From positions 1-31,736 of the IMG/VR virus record IMGVR_UViG_3300022841_000046: DNA of 31,736 nt; one strand, 5' to 3'. How positions within the stretch are numbered: position 1 is the stretch's first letter; each line of letters opens with the position of its first letter. Shown here one piece after another: positions 6,804-31,736 of the stretch. The position numbers were made by a program, and so were the translations under genes. This DNA comes from a virus. Below the pieces are notes generated by a model, which had not been told where the DNA came from, did not search any database, and was given only the letters and a program-made list of their open reading frames with translations.

Positions 6804-6825
6804 AATACAAAATATAAAATAAAAA

Positions 6826-6841
6826 GCATTATACAATTATG
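6826..6841 (+). promoter_or_regulatory. Diverged copy of the GTATTATATAATTA element before the protease gene
   Basis: GCATTATACAATTATG ends in the start codon of the protease gene. It differs at two places from the 14-base element found exactly at 26852, 29597 and 31287. It may be a phage promoter core or part of a translation-start context; the sequence does not decide which. Confidence 0.35.
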
Positions 6842-7549
6842 AAGATAATCGAATTAATTTTAGACGAGGATGAAGCGATAGGAGTTGAGGCAATTTCTGT
6901 CGTTGAAAATCCTGCAATTGAGTCCGACTTTATAGCACTTAAAAACCAAGACATACAACTTGCTGAAATTAGCAAAGAGAAGCGTTTATTGATGGGTGCC
7001 TTGCTAATACCAAAGAAGCCAATTTACAGAAGAGATGGAGATGACGAGTATTATGTTTTCTTTTCTTCTGATACTGTTTTAAAGGCATCACAAATGTATT
7101 TGCAAAATGGTAATCAATCTAATTCAACATTAGAGCACGACGGCAAATTAAAAGGCTTAACGCTTGTAGAATCTTGGATAGTTGAAGATAAAGAAAAAGA
7201 CAAAACAGCTCTTTACGGTTTAGATGTTCCCGTTGGTACTTGGATGGGTTCTGTTAAAGTTGACAATGATGAGGTATGGAATAACTATGTAAAGACGGGC
7301 AAGGTAAAAGGATTTAGTATTGAGGGTTATTTTGCAGATAAGTTAGAGAGACCAAACGAAAAACAAAAAGAAAGTTTGCGAGAATACCCACACTTTATGT
7401 ATGACCCAAAAACAGGAAGGGAGGTAAAAGTTTTAACCGAAAAGCAGCACAACGATTTAAAAAAGAAAGGCTTTGTGCATAGAAACCAAGAAAGTTATGA
7501 CGAAGAAATGTCAATACTAAACGAACTTAAAAAACTATTATCAGAATGA
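6839..7549 (+). CDS. XkdF-type prohead serine protease
   Basis: A 236-residue protein of the XkdF-like (S78-related) phage protease family. It begins with the family's M-K-I-I-E-L-I-L-D-E-D pattern and contains the expected catalytic candidates: H100 in L-E-H-D-G and S160 in K-G-F-S-I-E-G-Y. Such enzymes cleave scaffold and capsid N-termini during prohead maturation. The gene lies directly upstream of a Cys-rich ORF, an acidic scaffold candidate and the capsid gene, which fits. The start follows a 35-base gap after the tape measure that carries an AT-rich repeated element. Confidence 0.8.
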   Translation: MKIIELILDEDEAIGVEAISVVENPAIESDFIALKNQDIQLAEISKEKRLLMGALLIPKKPIYRRDGDDEYYVFFSSDTVLKASQMYLQNGNQSNSTLEHDGKLKGLTLVESWIVEDKEKDKTALYGLDVPVGTWMGSVKVDNDEVWNNYVKTGKVKGFSIEGYFADKLERPNEKQKESLREYPHFMYDPKTGREVKVLTEKQHNDLKKKGFVHRNQESYDEEMSILNELKKLLSE

Positions 7550-7680: not shown

Positions 7681-7716
7681 AGACCAAAATGCAAAATTAA
7701 CTTTAAATTTTATTAT

Positions 7717-8295
7717 ATGATTATGAATACAAAAGAGACATTAAACAAAGTTAGAACCTTGCTTGGAATACAGGTGAAGTTTGAGCAGATGAAACTCGAA
7801 AACGGTGCTATTTTAGAAGCGGAAGTATTTGAAGCAGGAGCAGAGATTTTTGTCGTAGCAGACGAAGAAAGAGTTGCAGTTCCTGTTGGAGAATATGAAA
7901 CAGAAGATAGTATGGTTATCGTTGTTGCAGAAGAAGGAATTATTGCTGAGGTAAAAGCAGTTGAAAGCGAAGAGGCACCCGCAGAGGTTGTTGAAGAAGT
8001 TGTTGAAGAGGAATTAGCGACAGAAGTAGCAACACCAAAGAAGGTTGTTAAATCAATAAGCGAAGAAACTTTTTTCTCAGAAATAAAAAGATTAGAAGAC
8101 ATTATTAACTCTTTAAAAGAGCCAAAAGTAGAACTTTCAAAAGAAGTTCAAAAGGTTGAGTTATCTGTAGAATCAGAAGTTGAGGGTATTACACACACGC
8201 CAGAAGCTGCATCCGCAAAGAAAGAATTACACCTATACGCACAAAAAGGAAAAAACACAATTTTAAACAAGATTTACTCACAAATAAATAAATAA
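7717..8295 (+). CDS. Acidic scaffold-like protein upstream of capsid
   Basis: A 192-residue, strongly acidic protein. Residues about 85-110 are nearly all Glu, Ala and Val, followed by a predicted helix with heptad-like spacing (about 115-150) and a basic C-terminus. The position between protease and capsid, and the acidic and helical character, fit a scaffolding protein or capsid-associated factor. An internal in-frame ATG at 7723 (M-N-T-K-E) may be the true start; both are preceded by an AT-rich leader. The role is inferred. Confidence 0.6.
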   Translation: MIMNTKETLNKVRTLLGIQVKFEQMKLENGAILEAEVFEAGAEIFVVADEERVAVPVGEYETEDSMVIVVAEEGIIAEVKAVESEEAPAEVVEEVVEEELATEVATPKKVVKSISEETFFSEIKRLEDIINSLKEPKVELSKEVQKVELSVESEVEGITHTPEAASAKKELHLYAQKGKNTILNKIYSQINK

Positions 8296-19492: not shown

Positions 19493-20230
19493 ATGAAAGA
19501 GATAATAGCGGTTTGGTTTAGCTGTGGTGCTGCAAGTGCGGTAGCTGCAAAAAAAACCATTGATAAGTACGGTAAAACTCACAATGTGATAATTGTAAAT
19601 AACCCAGTAGTAAATGAGCACAAGGATAATTTAAGGTTTTTAAAAGACTGTGAAGTTTGGTTTGGTCAAAAAGTTATAAGTGCCACAAACAGCAAGTACC
19701 CGTCTTGTGATATTAGAGACGTGTTTGAAAAGCGTAAGTATATTAGCGGTGTAGCAGGTGCACCTTGCACTAAGGAATTAAAAAAGGAAGCACGATACCA
19801 ATTTGAAAAAAACAATAAAATAGACTGGCACGTTTTAGGATTTACAATTGATGAAAAAAAACGTAGTGATAGGTTTATGAAGTTTGAAAGAGAAAATTTA
19901 ATACCTATTTTGATTGACGAAAACCTAACAAAAGGTAATTGCTTTGATATTCTTTTAGGTGAAAAAATTAAACTTCCAGAGATTTACAAATTAGGCTTTC
20001 CAAATGCAAATTGTATTGGTTGCGTAAAAAGTCAAAGCCCTACTTATTGGAATTTAGTTAGAGAGAAGTTTCCGGAAATATACAAAGAAAGAGCAAATCA
20101 AAGCAGGAAAATAGGCTGTAAACTAGTAAAAAGGAAAGGAGAGCGAATTTTTTTAGATGAATTACTACCTACCGATAAAGGTGGTAAAATAAAAAGTTGG
20201 GAATGTGGTATATTTTGCGATACCGAATAG
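19493..20230 (+). CDS. PAPS-reductase-family protein
   Basis: A 245-residue protein with the PP-loop of the adenylyl-transferring fold: S10-C-G-A-A-S15, close to the SxGxxS motif of PAPS reductases and DndC-type proteins. Further Cys occur in G-A-P-C-T-K-E-L-K (a typical motif of the family), in N-C-I-G-C-V-K and in E-C-G-I-F-C near the end, which could hold a metal or iron-sulfur centre. Many phages carry such a gene with no proven role; sulfate assimilation and DNA or RNA sulfur modification are possible. No other sulfur-modification genes are seen nearby. Confidence 0.7.
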   Translation: MKEIIAVWFSCGAASAVAAKKTIDKYGKTHNVIIVNNPVVNEHKDNLRFLKDCEVWFGQKVISATNSKYPSCDIRDVFEKRKYISGVAGAPCTKELKKEARYQFEKNNKIDWHVLGFTIDEKKRSDRFMKFERENLIPILIDENLTKGNCFDILLGEKIKLPEIYKLGFPNANCIGCVKSQSPTYWNLVREKFPEIYKERANQSRKIGCKLVKRKGERIFLDELLPTDKGGKIKSWECGIFCDTE

Positions 20231-25506: not shown

Positions 25507-26064
25507 ATGAACACACAAACAAAAGATTACAATTCAGAAGAAGCAGACAACATATTAGCAAAGTATGTAGAGTTAACAAATATGCAGATCACAAGCAAAT
25601 CAAAAAAAACAAAGGAAGCGTACACAAGAGCATTGTTTTACAAGGTTTTAATGCAGTTTAATTTTATGAATGACAGACAAGCCTCGGATTATTTTTTAGA
25701 CAAAGGAGCGATTAGAAATAGGAGCTCTATATTTCACGCACTTTCAAAAATTGATATGTATTATACAACTTACAAGGATTTTAGAAACATTTACAATATT
25801 TACTTTGATGACAAATTAATTGAGAACAAACTGATCGAGGACAAAATAAAGGCTAAGCACAAAGGATTAACTTTAAGACTTAATAGCAATATGTCAAACT
25901 ATAATAACGATTCCTTGCAACTGCTTATAAACAGTTTACCAGATAACAAAAGAGACGAAGTGTTTGAGATAGTTGAACTAAGGGTAAAGTCTTGGGCGTG
26001 GAAGAGTAGAGATAAGTGTGAGATAATAGAAAGTACAGATGGCATAAGTGCAAGTATATATTAA
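25507..26064 (+). CDS. DnaA domain IV-like DNA-binding protein
   Basis: A 185-residue protein. Residues about 25-85 resemble the C-terminal DNA-binding domain of DnaA: a basic region S-K-S-K-K-T-K-E-A-Y-T-R-A followed by a helix and R-N-R-S-S-I-F-H-A-L, the counterpart of the R-D-H-S-T-V-x-H-A signature. There is no AAA+ domain. It may bind origin-like sites of phage or host, or act as a regulator. The remainder is helical and charged. This is a motif-based call. Confidence 0.5.
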   Translation: MNTQTKDYNSEEADNILAKYVELTNMQITSKSKKTKEAYTRALFYKVLMQFNFMNDRQASDYFLDKGAIRNRSSIFHALSKIDMYYTTYKDFRNIYNIYFDDKLIENKLIEDKIKAKHKGLTLRLNSNMSNYNNDSLQLLINSLPDNKRDEVFEIVELRVKSWAWKSRDKCEIIESTDGISASIY

Positions 26065-26083
26065 TAAACTAAAAATAAATATT

Positions 26084-26794
26084 ATGAAGTATATGGGAAG
26101 TAAGAACAGGATAGCAAAATACATATTGCCTATAATTTTAGAGAATAGAAATGGCAAGACTTACGTAGAACCTTTTGTAGGTGGTGCCAATATGATAGAT
26201 AAAGTCGAGGGGGCTAGAATTGGAGCAGATTCTAACGAGTATCTAGTAAAGGCTTTGGAATTAATTAGGGATAATGTAAATAATATACCCTATTTAATAT
26301 CAGAAAATTACTACCAATTATTGAAAAATAAAAAAGAAGTAAACGGTATAACTGGGTTTGTTGGGTTTGCTATGAGTTTTGGAGGCAAATGGTTTGGTGG
26401 TTACAGGAGAGATGTTGCAGGAACTAAGGGCTGCATTGATAATATGAAAACACAAACAAGAAGAAGCAGACAAAATGCAATAAACCAAAGTAAGGAAATA
26501 CAAGGTGTAGAATTTATACACAGCAATTACCAAGATTTAATTATACCTAAAAACAGTATAATATACTGCGATCCACCTTATGAGGGTTCTACAGGATATA
26601 AGGACAAGTTTAATCACGTTAATTTTTGGGAATGGTGTAGAGTAAAAGCAAGTGAAGGGCATAATATTTTTATTAGTGAGTATAGTGCTCCGTATGATTT
26701 TAAATGTGTTTGGCAAAAAGAAGTTAATAGTTCTTTAACAAAAGATACAGGAAGTAAAAAATCAGTAGAGAAATTATTTACCATTAAATATTAA
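26084..26794 (+). CDS. D12-class adenine-N6 DNA methyltransferase
   Basis: A 236-residue protein starting at 26084, where M-K-Y-M-G-S-K-N-R-I is the family N-terminus; the upstream in-frame ATG at 26048 overlaps the previous gene. It has the SAM-binding Y-V-E-P-F-V-G-G-A-N-M (about residues 27-37) and the catalytic D163-P-P-Y166. It methylates adenine in DNA, presumably to protect phage DNA from host restriction or to mark it. The recognition site cannot be read. No partner restriction gene is present. Confidence 0.8.
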   Translation: MKYMGSKNRIAKYILPIILENRNGKTYVEPFVGGANMIDKVEGARIGADSNEYLVKALELIRDNVNNIPYLISENYYQLLKNKKEVNGITGFVGFAMSFGGKWFGGYRRDVAGTKGCIDNMKTQTRRSRQNAINQSKEIQGVEFIHSNYQDLIIPKNSIIYCDPPYEGSTGYKDKFNHVNFWEWCRVKASEGHNIFISEYSAPYDFKCVWQKEVNSSLTKDTGSKKSVEKLFTIKY

Positions 26795-26851
26795 GAACAA
26801 TTATAAATAACAAAAAGAGTTTAGTATATTTTGTAAATTGTCAGTTTAAAA

Positions 26852-26865
26852 GTATTATATAATTA
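26852..26865 (+). promoter_or_regulatory. GTATTATATAATTA element, copy 1
   Basis: Exact match to the copies at 29597 and 31287. It lies in the 192-base gap between the methyltransferase and the next gene, which holds no ORF and no perfect TAnnTTTG box. It may be a phage-specific promoter element. Confidence 0.45.
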
Positions 26866-26986: not shown

Positions 26987-27355
26987 ATGGAAGCAAAAGA
27001 ATTAAGAATTGGAAATTTTGTAAGTGATAAAATAAATAGATGTATTTCTATTCAAGAGGTTAGGCAAGATCATTATGTATTTACTTTAGCTAATGGAAGT
27101 AAAATAAAGTATCATATAAATTCTGCTAAACCTATACCATTAACAGAAGACTGGTTGTTAAAGTTTGGGTTTAAGTCGGTTAGTCTAGGGGAATATCAAT
27201 TGGGAAGTATTCTTTTAGATAATGAATATACGGATAAAGGTGTTTTTAATATATCGGATGGAGATCATTGTTTATCTTCTAATGTTTTATACGTACACCA
27301 ATTACAAAACTTATACTTTGCATTAAAGCAACAAGAATTACTGTTAACAACTTAG
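26987..27355 (+). CDS. Conserved phage/ICE protein of the MEAKELRIGN type
   Basis: A 122-residue protein. The start at 26987 is chosen because M-E-A-K-E-L-R-I-G-N is the usual N-terminus of a family common in Bacteroidota phages and mobile elements; the ATG at 26945 adds an unrelated hydrophobic lead. P-L-T-E-D-W-L-L-K-F-G-F and Y-V-H-Q-L-Q-N-L-Y-F-A-L are also typical. The function of the family is not known to me. Confidence 0.7.
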   Translation: MEAKELRIGNFVSDKINRCISIQEVRQDHYVFTLANGSKIKYHINSAKPIPLTEDWLLKFGFKSVSLGEYQLGSILLDNEYTDKGVFNISDGDHCLSSNVLYVHQLQNLYFALKQQELLLTT

Positions 27356-27402: not shown

Positions 27403-27870
27403 ATGCTAGAAAAGATTTACAGTTCACACAAGAAATGGATTAACACAGTTTTAAAATTCGGATGCTCGAGAGATGAGGCAGAAGATATAGTTAGTAGTAT
27501 GTATCTTATTATTGGTACAATGCTAAAAAAAGGTTTAAATATTTCTTATGGGGATGACGTAAATTATTACTATATTTATTTGACGTTAAAAACTACATTT
27601 TTACAGATGAAGAACAAGCAAAAGAAAGAAGCAAGAGTGCCAATTGATTTAGTATTAGATTTAGAATCTTCTGAGTATATTGATTTTGATGAGGCAAACG
27701 AAAGAGTACAAGAAGAGTTGCAAACTTTACATTGGTACGATAGAAAAATATACAATTTAGTTCAAGACGAGTACTCAATTACAGAACTATCAAAGAGAAC
27801 CAATATAAGTTATCACAGTATTTACAATACATTTAGAAAAGTTAAACAAAAGCTAAAAGAAAAAATATGA
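27403..27870 (+). CDS. Sigma-70-like (ECF-type) factor
   Basis: A 155-residue protein with a region-2-like start (K-K-W-I-N-T-V-L-K-F-G-C-S-R-D-E-A-E-D-I-V, residues about 10-30) and a C-terminal region-4 helix-turn-helix (Y-S-I-T-E-L-S-K-R-T-N-I-S-Y-H-S-I-Y-N, about 124-142). Region 2 is divergent and the linker is short. It could direct host RNA polymerase to phage late promoters; the repeated GTATTATATAATTA element upstream of late genes is a candidate site. It is encoded just before the late block. Confidence 0.65.
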   Translation: MLEKIYSSHKKWINTVLKFGCSRDEAEDIVSSMYLIIGTMLKKGLNISYGDDVNYYYIYLTLKTTFLQMKNKQKKEARVPIDLVLDLESSEYIDFDEANERVQEELQTLHWYDRKIYNLVQDEYSITELSKRTNISYHSIYNTFRKVKQKLKEKI

Positions 27871-28433: not shown

Positions 28434-28565
28434 ATGAGACTTGGAGACTTAATAGAATTGATTACAAGATACACAGGGATTAAATACATTGTTAAAAAGG
28501 TATTTGGCGATAACTGCGGGTGTGATAAAAGGCAAGAACAATTAAATGAAATTGAATTATGGTAA
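28434..28565 (+). CDS. Small conserved Cys protein
   Basis: A 43-residue protein with L-G-D-L-I-E-L-I-T-R-Y-T-G-I-K and G-D-N-C-G-C-D-K-R-Q-E-Q-L-N. The C-G-C-D-K-R pattern recurs in small proteins of Bacteroidota phages located before the terminase genes. The role is unknown. It overlaps the next gene by 7 bases. Confidence 0.6.
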   Translation: MRLGDLIELITRYTGIKYIVKKVFGDNCGCDKRQEQLNEIELW

Positions 28566-29478: not shown

Positions 29479-29499
29479 AAGAATAATAATAAAGCTTTG

Positions 29500-29597
29500 T
29501 GGTCAGGGTTTTGTTAGTGGGTTTAAATGTGCCTATGTGTTTTCTACGGTTCGATTCCGTTTTATTTTAAACCTCTACTAAAATAGGGGTTTTTTTG
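29500..29597 (+). ncRNA. Structured RNA candidate with T-arm-like hairpin and terminator
   Basis: This ORF-free segment contains ACGGTTCGATTCCGT (29546-29560), which has the sequence of a tRNA T arm with loop TTCGATT. GGTTTAAA (29520-29527) can pair with TTTAAACC (29566-29573), enclosing that arm. The same 3' bases form the terminator stem at 29569-29592, so the two folds exclude each other. I could not build an anticodon arm, so it is not a tRNA. It may be an attenuator or leader RNA controlling the terminase genes. Confidence 0.35.
29569..29597 (+). terminator. Terminator upstream of the terminase genes
   Basis: AAACCTCTA (29569-29577) pairs with TAGGGGTTT (29584-29592), with one wobble, around the loop CTAAAA, followed by T. 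It separates the small-gene block from the late packaging genes. Confidence 0.8.
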
Positions 29598-29610
29598 TAT
29601 TATATAATTA
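29597..29610 (+). promoter_or_regulatory. GTATTATATAATTA element, copy 2
   Basis: Begins where the terminator T run ends and lies 18 bases upstream of the small terminase start. This is the place where a late promoter is expected, and it supports the element being a promoter core. Confidence 0.5.
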
Positions 29611-29628: not shown

Positions 29629-29913
29629 ATGGAAGATAAAAGAAAAAGCAACGGAGGACACAGTACAAAATCAAAAGAAGGAGCGATTGATAAACGCAAG
29701 AACGAATACAGAAAAGCACTTGAAGAGGCATCAACAAAACAAGATGTAATTGACGTTATTAATATGATAAAGACCAAGGCGATAAAAAGCAAAGATGTTC
29801 AAGCAGGAAAACTGTTTTTAGAATACTATATTGGAAAACCAAAAGACAGTGTTGACATTACAACAAACGGAGATACGATAAACATACCCGTTATTACTTT
29901 TAGAAAGTCTTAA
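29629..29913 (+). CDS. terS: Terminase small subunit
   Basis: A 94-residue basic protein directly upstream of the large terminase. It begins R-K-S-N-G-G-H-S-T-K, and its C-terminal part (V-Q-A-G-K-L-F-L-E-Y-Y-I-G-K-P-K-D) matches the usual terminase small-subunit region that carries the oligomerisation and DNA-contact helices. It selects phage DNA for packaging. The short length suggests a minimal subunit. The DNA site it recognises may lie in the non-coding segment just upstream. Confidence 0.65.
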   Translation: MEDKRKSNGGHSTKSKEGAIDKRKNEYRKALEEASTKQDVIDVINMIKTKAIKSKDVQAGKLFLEYYIGKPKDSVDITTNGDTINIPVITFRKS

Positions 29914-29918
29914 AGCCT

Positions 29919-31127
29919 ATGAGTGGAATAGTTATAAATGATTTATTTGAGCCTTTGCGTTCTTCTGGTGCTCGTTACTATATTGTTACAGGTGGTAGAG
30001 GTTCTGCAAAGTCTTACAGTACAACTTTGATAGAGGCAACAAATACTTTTAAAGAAGGCTACAATTGTTTATATACAAGATACACAATGACCTCAGCGGA
30101 GCTGTCTATAATACCAGAGTTTAACGAAAAGATTGAGTTGTTAAATTCTTCTGATTGTTTTGACATTACAAAGAAAGAGATTACAAATACAGTTACAGGA
30201 AGTAGAATATTGTTCAGAGGTATTAAAACATCAGCAGGAAACCAAACAGCAAATTTAAAATCTTTGCAAGGAATATCAACTTGGGTACTTGATGAAGCAG
30301 AAGAGATGGTTGACGAAAACGAATTTGACACAATTGACCTATCAATAAGAAGCAACGTGCAACAGAATAGAATAATACTTATTTTAAACCCTGTTACAAA
30401 AGAACATTGGATATTTAAAAAGTTCTTTGAATCAAAAGGAGTAACAGAAGGTTTTAACGGAATTGTTGGGGATGTGTGTTACATTCATACCACTTATCTA
30501 AACAACATAGAGAACCTACCAAAATCATTTATAGACAATATAGAAAACATCAGAGTAACAAACCCAAACAAATACAAGCACAAAATACTTGGCGGATGGT
30601 TAGACAAAGCAGAGGGCGTAATATTTACAAATTGGAAGTTTGGTACATTTAATCCTGACTCTTTGCAAACGTCTTGCGGAATGGATTTTGGTTTTTCTGT
30701 TGATCCAGATACTCTAACAGAAGTTGCAATTGATAAGTCAAAAAAGATAATATATTTAAAGGAACATATTTATCAAAACGGCTTAAAGGTAGACGACCTT
30801 GCTGCACTAATATTAGAAAAGGTAGGAAGTAAATTAATTATATCAGAAACAGATCCTAGATTAGTAGCAGATCTAAAATACAGAGGCTGCAATATAAAGC
30901 AGCACAAAAAAGGACTTATAGAAGTTGGCGTTACATTGATGTTAGAGTATTCAATTATAGTAGAACCAAAGAGTATTAACATAGCAAAAGAATTAAACAA
31001 TTATGCGTATTCTGACAAGGCAAGTAAGTTATACATTGATGACTTTAACCACGCAATAGATGGAAGTAGATACAATATAGAGCACCATCTAAGAAGTCCG
31101 AACTCAGGAAAATACAATATAAGATAA
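29919..31127 (+). CDS. terL: Terminase large subunit
   Basis: A 402-residue packaging motor with ATPase and nuclease parts. Walker A is G25-G-R-G-S-A-K-S32 and Walker B is W122-V-L-D-E126. The nuclease part begins near C-G-M-D-F-G-F-S-V-D-P-D-T-L, with further acidic residues in S-E-T-D-P-R and H-A-I-D-G-S-R. It resembles the PBSX-type (Terminase_3) large subunits. It cuts concatemers and pumps DNA through the portal. The length is usual for the family. Confidence 0.9.
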   Translation: MSGIVINDLFEPLRSSGARYYIVTGGRGSAKSYSTTLIEATNTFKEGYNCLYTRYTMTSAELSIIPEFNEKIELLNSSDCFDITKKEITNTVTGSRILFRGIKTSAGNQTANLKSLQGISTWVLDEAEEMVDENEFDTIDLSIRSNVQQNRIILILNPVTKEHWIFKKFFESKGVTEGFNGIVGDVCYIHTTYLNNIENLPKSFIDNIENIRVTNPNKYKHKILGGWLDKAEGVIFTNWKFGTFNPDSLQTSCGMDFGFSVDPDTLTEVAIDKSKKIIYLKEHIYQNGLKVDDLAALILEKVGSKLIISETDPRLVADLKYRGCNIKQHKKGLIEVGVTLMLEYSIIVEPKSINIAKELNNYAYSDKASKLYIDDFNHAIDGSRYNIEHHLRSPNSGKYNIR

Positions 31128-31279
31128 TGGGAAACCTTGAAATGATAGCTACAATAGAATGTTTTATACATCACAAGACAGGAAAAGAGATACGTATATC
31201 ACAGCCAAAGAATCACAACCATTTTTTTCTGCTCACAAAGGCGTATGAAAGTTGTAAGAAGTATTTTATAAAACATTAG
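31127..31279 (+). CDS. Small protein after terminase, unknown
   Basis: A 50-residue ORF whose start overlaps the terminase stop by one base (TAATG). It has three Cys/His-containing stretches (E-C-F-I-H-H, N-H-N-H-F-F, S-C-K-K-Y) that could bind a metal. No family is recognised. Confidence 0.5.
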   Translation: MGNLEMIATIECFIHHKTGKEIRISQPKNHNHFFLLTKAYESCKKYFIKH

Positions 31280-31286
31280 TAAAAAA

Positions 31287-31300
31287 GTATTATATAATTA
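31287..31300 (+). promoter_or_regulatory. GTATTATATAATTA element, copy 3
   Basis: Its last A is the first base of the chaperone gene's ATG. If it were a promoter core, transcription would start within the gene, so here it may act on translation or be a site from which the next gene is not initiated. Confidence 0.4.
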
Positions 31301-31736
31301 TGAAGATAGAAATTAACGTACCAACCTCACTAAGCGAAATTACACTTGGTCAATATCAAAAGTTTTTAAAAATAGCTGAGAACAATCCAGAAGGAAACTT
31401 CTTAGATGCTAAAATGATAGAAATATTCTGCGGCATACCTTTGTCAGAAAGTTACAAGTTAAAGATGTCAAGCGTTCAGGCAATTGTTGATATACTAAAT
31501 GAGTTGTTAGATATAAACCCAGAGCACGTAGAGAGGTTTACTTTGCACGGCACAGAATACGGATTTGTTCCTGACTTAAATGAAATGAGTCTTGGAGAGT
31601 ATATTGATCTTGACAGCAACGCAGGAAAGTGGGAGCAGATGCATCTTGCAATGAACGTCTTATATAGACCAATTCTAAATAGTAAAGCGGGTAAGTACAA
31701 TATTGAAGAATATAATACACAAGGATCTGAGGTATT
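31300..31736 (+). CDS. Tail assembly chaperone, 5' part (cut by contig end)
   Basis: The 5' part of the gene that continues at base 1. M-K-I-E-I-N-V-P-T-S-L-S-E-I-T-L-G-Q-Y-Q-K-F is the N-terminal pattern of Bacteroidota tail-chaperone proteins, followed by F-C-G-I-P-L-S-E and Y-G-F-V-P-D-L-N-E-M. It is open to the end of the window, with 145 codons plus two bases. Bases from 31602 on duplicate bases 1-135, so the gene should be read 31300-31601 then 1-352 (or on to 435 after a -1 shift). Confidence 0.75.
   Translation, partial: MKIEINVPTSLSEITLGQYQKFLKIAENNPEGNFLDAKMIEIFCGIPLSESYKLKMSSVQAIVDILNELLDINPEHVERFTLHGTEYGFVPDLNEMSLGEYIDLDSNAGKWEQMHLAMNVLYRPILNSKAGKYNIEEYNTQGSEV
31602..31736. repeat. 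Right copy of diverged terminal overlap
   Basis: Aligns to bases 1-135 with 11 transitions at third codon positions and no change in protein. See the left copy. Confidence 0.9.

Follow-up and report, generated by a model that had tools for sequence, protein, structure and literature searches.

A predicted ECF-like sigma factor and its putative two-box late promoters in a group of flavobacterial phages

Does the sigma-70-like protein encoded just before the late genes of this phage recognise the short element that recurs along the genome, and why does that element repeatedly touch start codons? The stretch of DNA analysed here, which we call the window, is the virus record IMGVR_UViG_3300022841_000046 over its full length of 31,736 bases (about 70% AT). 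A few model phages are known to encode sigma factors that activate their late genes, and an earlier note on this DNA had suggested that a factor of this kind could act on a repeated 14-mer, with a role in translation as the main alternative. The boxes, their spacing, their positions and their co-variation with the sigma protein point, with high confidence as far as sequence comparison goes, to the element being a late promoter of an ECF-like phage sigma factor.

Results

The phage genome

The ends of the record (2-132 and 31603-31733) match with 93% identity over 131 bases, so that the record could be close to complete and circularly permuted; an overlap of this kind is what a circularly permuted genome would give if its assembly drew on mixed strains. 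Among named phages, the Nonlabens phages P12024S/L have the nearest terminase (61%). The recognised late genes include those for the terminase large subunit (TerL; 29919..31127, plus strand; Pfam Terminase_3, 117.4 bits; phrog_3717), an XkdF-like prohead protease (Peptidase_S78_2; 6839..7549, plus strand), the portal, a tail protein and a holin, and the early-type genes include those for an Erf-like annealing protein, an exonuclease and endonuclease VII. TerL is preceded by a phrog_38011 gene of unknown function (29629..29913, plus strand), TerS-like by position only.

A two-box element at five sites

Exact copies of the 14-mer start, as had been claimed, at 26852, 29597 and 31287; all are on the plus strand and none on the minus strand, and the comparison with shuffled sequence refutes chance: three copies were observed, against a mean of 0.003 and a maximum of 1 in 1000 dinucleotide shuffles, none of which reached three. 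When up to two mismatches are allowed, there are 11 matches compared to a mean of 1.99, a number reached in 0 of 100 shuffles. The looser copies of the same set are at 6826 (two mismatches), a variant also correctly placed in the earlier note, and at 7710 (TTATTATATGATTA, abutting the ATG at 7723), which had been overlooked there together with a further box, NNYAAA (box 1), that starts exactly 20 nt upstream of all five copies. This two-box pattern, defined for the shuffle test after inspection of the five sites, occurs five times on the plus strand and not once on the minus strand (shuffle mean 0.001, maximum 1).

We denote the sites A (the gene that follows TerL and the small neighbour of TerL), B (the protease), C (the gene at 7723), D (upstream of the gene that precedes TerL) and E (upstream of the sigma gene); all five candidate promoters are on the plus strand. 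At A (31267..31300; box 1 TATAAA, 31267-31272; box 2, 31287-31300), the last A of box 2 is the A of the ATG of a putatively leaderless late gene of unknown function (31300..31734, plus strand; phrog_32199) that is truncated where the record stops. The same register holds at B (6806..6839; box 1 TACAAA, 6806-6811; box 2 GCATTATACAATTA, 6826-6839), where the last A of box 2 is that of the protease ATG, and at C (7690..7723; box 1 TGCAAA, 7690-7695; box 2 TTATTATATGATTA, 7710-7723), where it is that of the ATG at 7723 and the late gene that follows (7723..8295, plus strand) is of unknown function, with no PHROG match. Contact with start codons had been noticed before for two copies; the contact is real, and the copies that touch or overlap an ATG number three (6826, 7710 and 31287).

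The other two sites are removed from start codons. Promoter D (29577..29610; box 1 ACTAAA, 29577-29582; box 2, 29597-29610) ends 19 nt before the ATG (29629) of the gene preceding TerL, and its 14-mer at 29597 does lie, as had been described, between a terminator and the terminase genes: a terminator-like hairpin (29569-29592) is upstream, and the phrog_38011 gene and TerL are downstream. Promoter E (26832..26865; box 1 TGTAAA, 26832-26837; box 2 GTATTATATAATTA, 26852-26865) is upstream of both an ORF at 26987-27355 and the sigma gene, with position 26852 being 551 nt before the sigma start codon, and its transcripts would have a leader longer than 100 nt; the sigma gene itself is probably transcribed from this promoter. 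A D12-class adenine DNA methyltransferase is encoded upstream of E (26048-26794).

Box 1 of D in the window sits inside the hairpin. The arrangement of a promoter built into a terminator hairpin was considered as a general rule and rejected, given that one of 60 D sites passed the test. A tRNA-like T-arm (ACGGTTCGATTCCGT, 29480-29568) precedes the terminator; it was not called by ARAGORN and, among 106 D regions, is found in the window only (0 of the 105 others).

The sigma protein

The ORF at 27403..27870 (plus strand) is real and its product of 155 aa is sigma-like, as had been proposed, with a predicted region 2 (approximately residues 1-77), a linker and a predicted region 4 (approximately 95-155). 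Its own Pfam score is below the curated cut-off (Sigma70_r4_2, a weak region 4 match at 19.4 bits, cut-off 25.7); gp33 of P12024S scores 25.2 bits with Sigma70_r2 (cut-off 24.0). An AlphaFold2 model built from 21 sequences (pLDDT 80.1; pTM 0.45, the latter because the two sigma domains are loosely placed) consists of a four-helix N domain, a linker and a C domain, and its top Foldseek matches in the PDB are ECF sigma factors (SigH, sigmaE; probability 1.00, best E 2.5e-3). The model thus has the ECF architecture, with regions 2 and 4 and without regions 1.1 and 3, and the sigma profile aligns with region 2 of SigH/SigR. We predict from the model that 27403-27870 encodes an ECF-like sigma factor.

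The candidate promoters likewise have the two boxes, -35 and -10, at a fixed spacing that are found with ECF sigma factors. The typical ECF -35 motif, GGAAC, is common but not universal; box 1 of the window does not follow it, being NNYAAA at all five sites. A cognate anti-sigma gene beside the sigma gene is also common but not universal. The ORFs that follow the sigma gene differ between relatives, and the 50-aa membrane-like ORF at 27867 of the window is not general. A 43-aa protein with the pattern LGDLIELITRYTGIK...NCGCDKRQEQLN is encoded at 28434-28565; its relatives follow the sigma gene in many loci, it has no Pfam match, and a longer form is gp35 of P12024S, itself located behind a late-type box.

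A search with the sigma profile matched 183 loci, and in many relatives the sigma gene is upstream of the terminase genes. Five loci longer than 9 kb lack a match; in four of these the missing gene is accounted for by a contig that begins no more than about 1.2 kb from TerL, and the contig of L016 begins about 2 kb before TerL. A tblastn search with the window sigma against 50,697 phage records gave no match at E 0.1. The search for host or prophage copies in genome contigs gave a single match, L209, a relative with 77% identity on a 3.5-kb contig within a Campylobacterales MAG, which is probably a stray phage contig. The putative sigma/promoter system is common to a large group of phages.

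Promoter sites in related phages

The relatives carry the box at the corresponding gene starts and also ahead of the terminase genes. With the five sites as the seed of a weight matrix run on 50 non-redundant of 143 sequences, the first round gave 33 matches and the later ones 44-45, every match being on the plus (late-gene) strand, and the reversed control gave none; these matches represent conservation and not independent events, many of the relatives sharing ancestry with the window. Once sequences at least 85% alike are collapsed, box 1 lies at one exact offset in 19/23 A, 15/15 B, 5/5 C, 29/32 D and 11/17 E sites. Among the A, B and C sites with a box of the types listed below, to which this count is limited, the first box base (-12) precedes the A of the ATG by 12 nt in 87/99, 27/28 and 9/9 cases, respectively; none of the listed boxes was found at 47/146 A, 19/47 B and 12/21 C sites. 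D sites of relatives are about 20-50 nt before the next gene, and E sites, in many relatives, are about 190 nt (mostly 167-203 nt) before the sigma ATG.

Counts of ATG-anchored pairs in single genomes were dominated by A-rich starts and detected the element unreliably in distant clades, and the box patterns of clades were then taken from k-mers and by eye. The window clade has TATTATA, L013/L014/L018/L029 and L022 have TGTAATATA, L140/L188/L193/L195 have CGTTATATA, the L066 clade has CGTTTATATATAA, a freshwater clade has AATGTTTTTAAATAA and P12024S has CGTTAATATA, of which 6/6 plus-strand copies lie 2-6 nt before an ATG (shuffle mean 0.13).

In some loci a promoter also lies within the sigma ORF. 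At 3172 of L067, a copy of the clade's late promoter (TATAACGATT...CGTTTATATATAA) occurs inside this ORF and is followed by an in-frame ATGATG, and such promoters are present in L066, L070, L075, L078 and L081 as well; as judged from these positions, they could drive a shortened sigma that contains region 4.

Concerted change of boxes within genomes

The sites of one genome tend to share a box type, and clades differ. The similarity between A and B boxes is 9.45/11 within genomes compared to 8.13 between genomes, a difference reached in 0 of 20000 permutations over 38 genomes; for A-C and B-C (16 genomes), it was reached in 507 and 578 of 20000 permutations. After relatives are collapsed, the respective values are 311/20000 for A-B (14), 3098/40320 for A-C (8) and 432/720 for B-C (6), so that only the concerted change of A and B stands, and A-C and B-C are not significant.

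The clearest case is the pair L017 and L029, which share 98% identity in TerL and in the phrog_38011 protein and 94% in the A protein but only 58% in sigma, and which have, at both A and D, the boxes TATTATATA and TGTAATATA, respectively. The terminase region of L016 compares with that of L029 exactly as that of L017 does, and upstream of its site B the DNA is that of L029 except for the box bases. There are counter-examples: L195 has CATTATATA at D and CGTTATATA at A, and L014 and L018 have TTGTTATATA at D and TTGTAATATA elsewhere.

Sigma residue 68 and promoter base -11

Five residues (39, 61, 64, 65 and 68) separate, without overlap, the sigmas that go with TGTAATATA boxes (5 sequences from 4 contigs) from those that go with TATTATA boxes (66), and four of the five share one face of the helix 55-77, as follows from their i, i+3, i+4, i+7 spacing. 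In a scan of all sigma columns, made without knowledge of the SigH structure, residue 68 comes first and residue 65 next, with one error; residue 68 ranks first in the close and the distant half of the sequences alike. Residue 68 predicts base -11 in 87 of the 87 scored genomes, with the calls for L081, L036 and L037 re-set by eye (otherwise three errors): Gln or Lys is accompanied by A in 57 genomes, and Asp or Asn by G in 30. The scored set comes from 120 rows, of which 28 had no call (13 without an A, B or C site and 15 without a recognised box); of the other 92, 5 were excluded for misalignment (L045 and four freshwater ones). Rows with identical TerL were merged. The freshwater clade L048-L060, with its other box and Ser, Thr or Lys at residue 68, was left unscored. 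On a TerL tree, which is a quick one with long branches, residue 68 and base -11 each change 8 times, and the well-supported independent pairs agree in 5/5 cases (sign test p 0.0625, the most that five pairs can give).

An HMMER alignment to SigH equates residues 68, 61, 64 and 57 with N92, I85, N88 and W81, the SigH numbers being assigned from the residues named in PMC6411747. In the crystal structure of Mycobacterium tuberculosis SigH, N92 forms a hydrogen bond with the base opposite G-11, and I85, N88 and W81 form the T-10 pocket (PMC6411747). We propose that residue 68 (Gln in the window, within helix 55-77) would be the reader of base -11, and consider its co-variation with this base the strongest evidence for the pairing of sigma and promoter.

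A model of late transcription

Our preferred reading, to which we assign a probability of roughly 86%, is that the phage ECF-like sigma (27403-27870) would recruit the host RNA polymerase core to late promoters that consist of NNYAAA at about -33 followed by [T/C]ATTATAYA at -12 to -4. Five such promoters would serve the sigma region (E), the genes that precede (D) and follow (A) TerL, the protease (B) and the next gene (C). Helix 55-77 would read the -10 box, with residue 68 reading base pair -11 (Gln/Lys with A, Asp/Asn with G), and transcription of the sigma gene from promoter E would create a positive feedback, that is, an autogenous loop. The binding of RNA polymerase, the start sites, the lateness, the activity of sigma and the leaderless translation are the components of this model that we infer.

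Promoters A, B and C would end on the start codon and produce leaderless mRNAs. In SigH, the -10 box consists of G-11, T-10 and T-9 relative to +1 (PMC6411747), and when this register is applied to the phage boxes, the A of the ATG at A, B and C becomes +1. From this geometry, contact of the box with the ATG most likely means that the mRNAs are leaderless. Such contact had been regarded as odd for a promoter; it ceases to be odd if the mRNAs are leaderless and the A of the ATG is at the +1 of an ECF promoter.

It also appears fairly probable that, in a large group of flavobacterial phages, promoter specificity has been re-tuned repeatedly, with each replacement of the sigma or change of residue 68 (among Gln, Asn and Asp) followed by matching changes in the leaderless late promoters of the genome, which would amount to a natural one-residue code for ECF base -11.

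Alternative explanations

RinA, ArpU and LtrC are late regulators of Gram-positive phages that are often encoded beside the terminase, and the window protein, a putative regulator of late genes whose own gene neighbours those of the terminase, resembles them in this. The sites could accordingly be operators of a sigma-like activator, with the promoter proper recognised by a host sigma, and this reading draws on the location of the gene, which in many relatives lies ahead of the terminase genes, the typical place of such activators, and on the weak Pfam score of the window protein. We nevertheless consider it unlikely: regions 2 and 4 are both modelled and match ECF sigma factors, the window protein has no Pfam match to the RinA, ArpU or LtrC families at E 0.001, and residue 68 varies with one base of the -10 box, through what would be the same contact as in SigH (PMC6411747). 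The boxes, moreover, do not conform to TAnnTTTG, the sigmaA box of the host (PMC9723704). Even less credible is the possibility that the boxes are host promoters, recognised by sigmaA or an ECF sigma of the host, and that the phage sigma acts elsewhere. An ECF-type sigma of Flavobacterium psychrophilum uses a CGT-type -10 box (motif SM6; PMC9723704), which is like the boxes of the CGTTATATA and CGTTAATATA clades, but the box type differs between near-identical phages with different sigma genes (L017/L029) and tracks sigma residue 68. Nor is TAnnTTTG enriched on the plus strand of the window (21 occurrences compared to a shuffle mean of 25.1).

To our knowledge, Flavobacteriia do without Shine-Dalgarno sequences, and the element could be read as a signal for translation initiation, in the manner of an AU-rich, Kozak-like start context, given that three copies in the window and most boxed A, B and C sites touch an ATG. 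This reading, formerly the main alternative, now seems very improbable: the D and E copies are away from start codons, box 1 keeps one fixed distance, 19 nt, from box 2, most start codons of the window have an A-rich context without the element, the element co-varies with the sigma helix, and leaderless mRNAs would make a translation element unnecessary. Chance repeats, conceivable in DNA that is about 70% AT, are practically dismissed by the shuffles, the strand bias and the conservation. What favours the late promoter, in agreement with the original proposal, is box 1 at a fixed spacing at five non-homologous sites, the existence of copies away from start codons (19 nt before 29629, and 167-203 nt before sigma) and the change of the box together across the sites of a genome and with the sigma helix.

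Discussion

The nearest known cases are those of phages phiEco32 and 7-11, whose sigma factors, gp36 and gp47, direct the host core polymerase to late promoters (PMC8948821); the likeness is that of a phage late sigma, with the window system being known from sequence alone. These two sigmas are highly divergent: gp36 and gp47 share 15% identity and use different promoter sequences at similar genome positions, tAATGTAtA and GTAAtg-16-aCTA, with starts mapped experimentally in enterobacterial hosts (PMC8948821). Unlike these, the window sigma is ECF-like, the promoters abut ATG codons and a residue-to-base correspondence is apparent; no leaderless rule is seen in the available part of PMC8948821. 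M. tuberculosis SigH is similar in having regions 2 and 4 only, in the -10 box being read as -11, then T-10 and T-9, and in the equivalence of N92 with residue 68 (PMC6411747), but the window sigma is a phage gene, its -35 box is NNYAAA and the window clade combines Gln68 with A at -11. Isolated relatives are the Nonlabens phages P12024S/L (NC_018271, NC_018272; gp33/gp35), in which the sigma gene, annotated with Sigma-70 region 2, is located just before the terminase, and the ATG-abutting box CGTTAATATA is repeated; they differ in that their sigma is 18% identical to that of the window and has Asp at 68 and that their boxes are of another type, and the records annotate no promoters.

As far as the open-access literature shows, the phage late sigma as such is known (phiEco32, 7-11), and what is new is the leaderless arrangement, the spread among flavobacterial phages and the residue-base code; a search of that literature, with subscription papers outside it, did not find the system described. 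The relatives across many contigs form a natural experiment in which near-identical genomes differ in sigma and late promoters together. With these natural pairs, and with residue 68 aligned to a contact residue of SigH, the specificity of sigma for its promoter becomes directly testable using a handful of them. In F. psychrophilum, the sigmaA box is at -12 to -5 and leaderless mRNAs make up 5.5% (PMC9723704). If the phage mRNAs are leaderless, late protein synthesis would show how Flavobacteriia, in which such mRNAs are rare by this figure, start translation on them.

An Rfam search of the window gave no match at the gathering score, the top score being 32.4 bits for a family with a 50-bit threshold. 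Among the early genes there is a phosphoadenosine phosphosulfate reductase-like gene (19493-20230). Upstream of the early genes, a long intergenic region contains three plus-strand copies of TATNTTTG (17634, 17784 and 17913), which resemble host sigmaA boxes, an assignment that is only suggestive.
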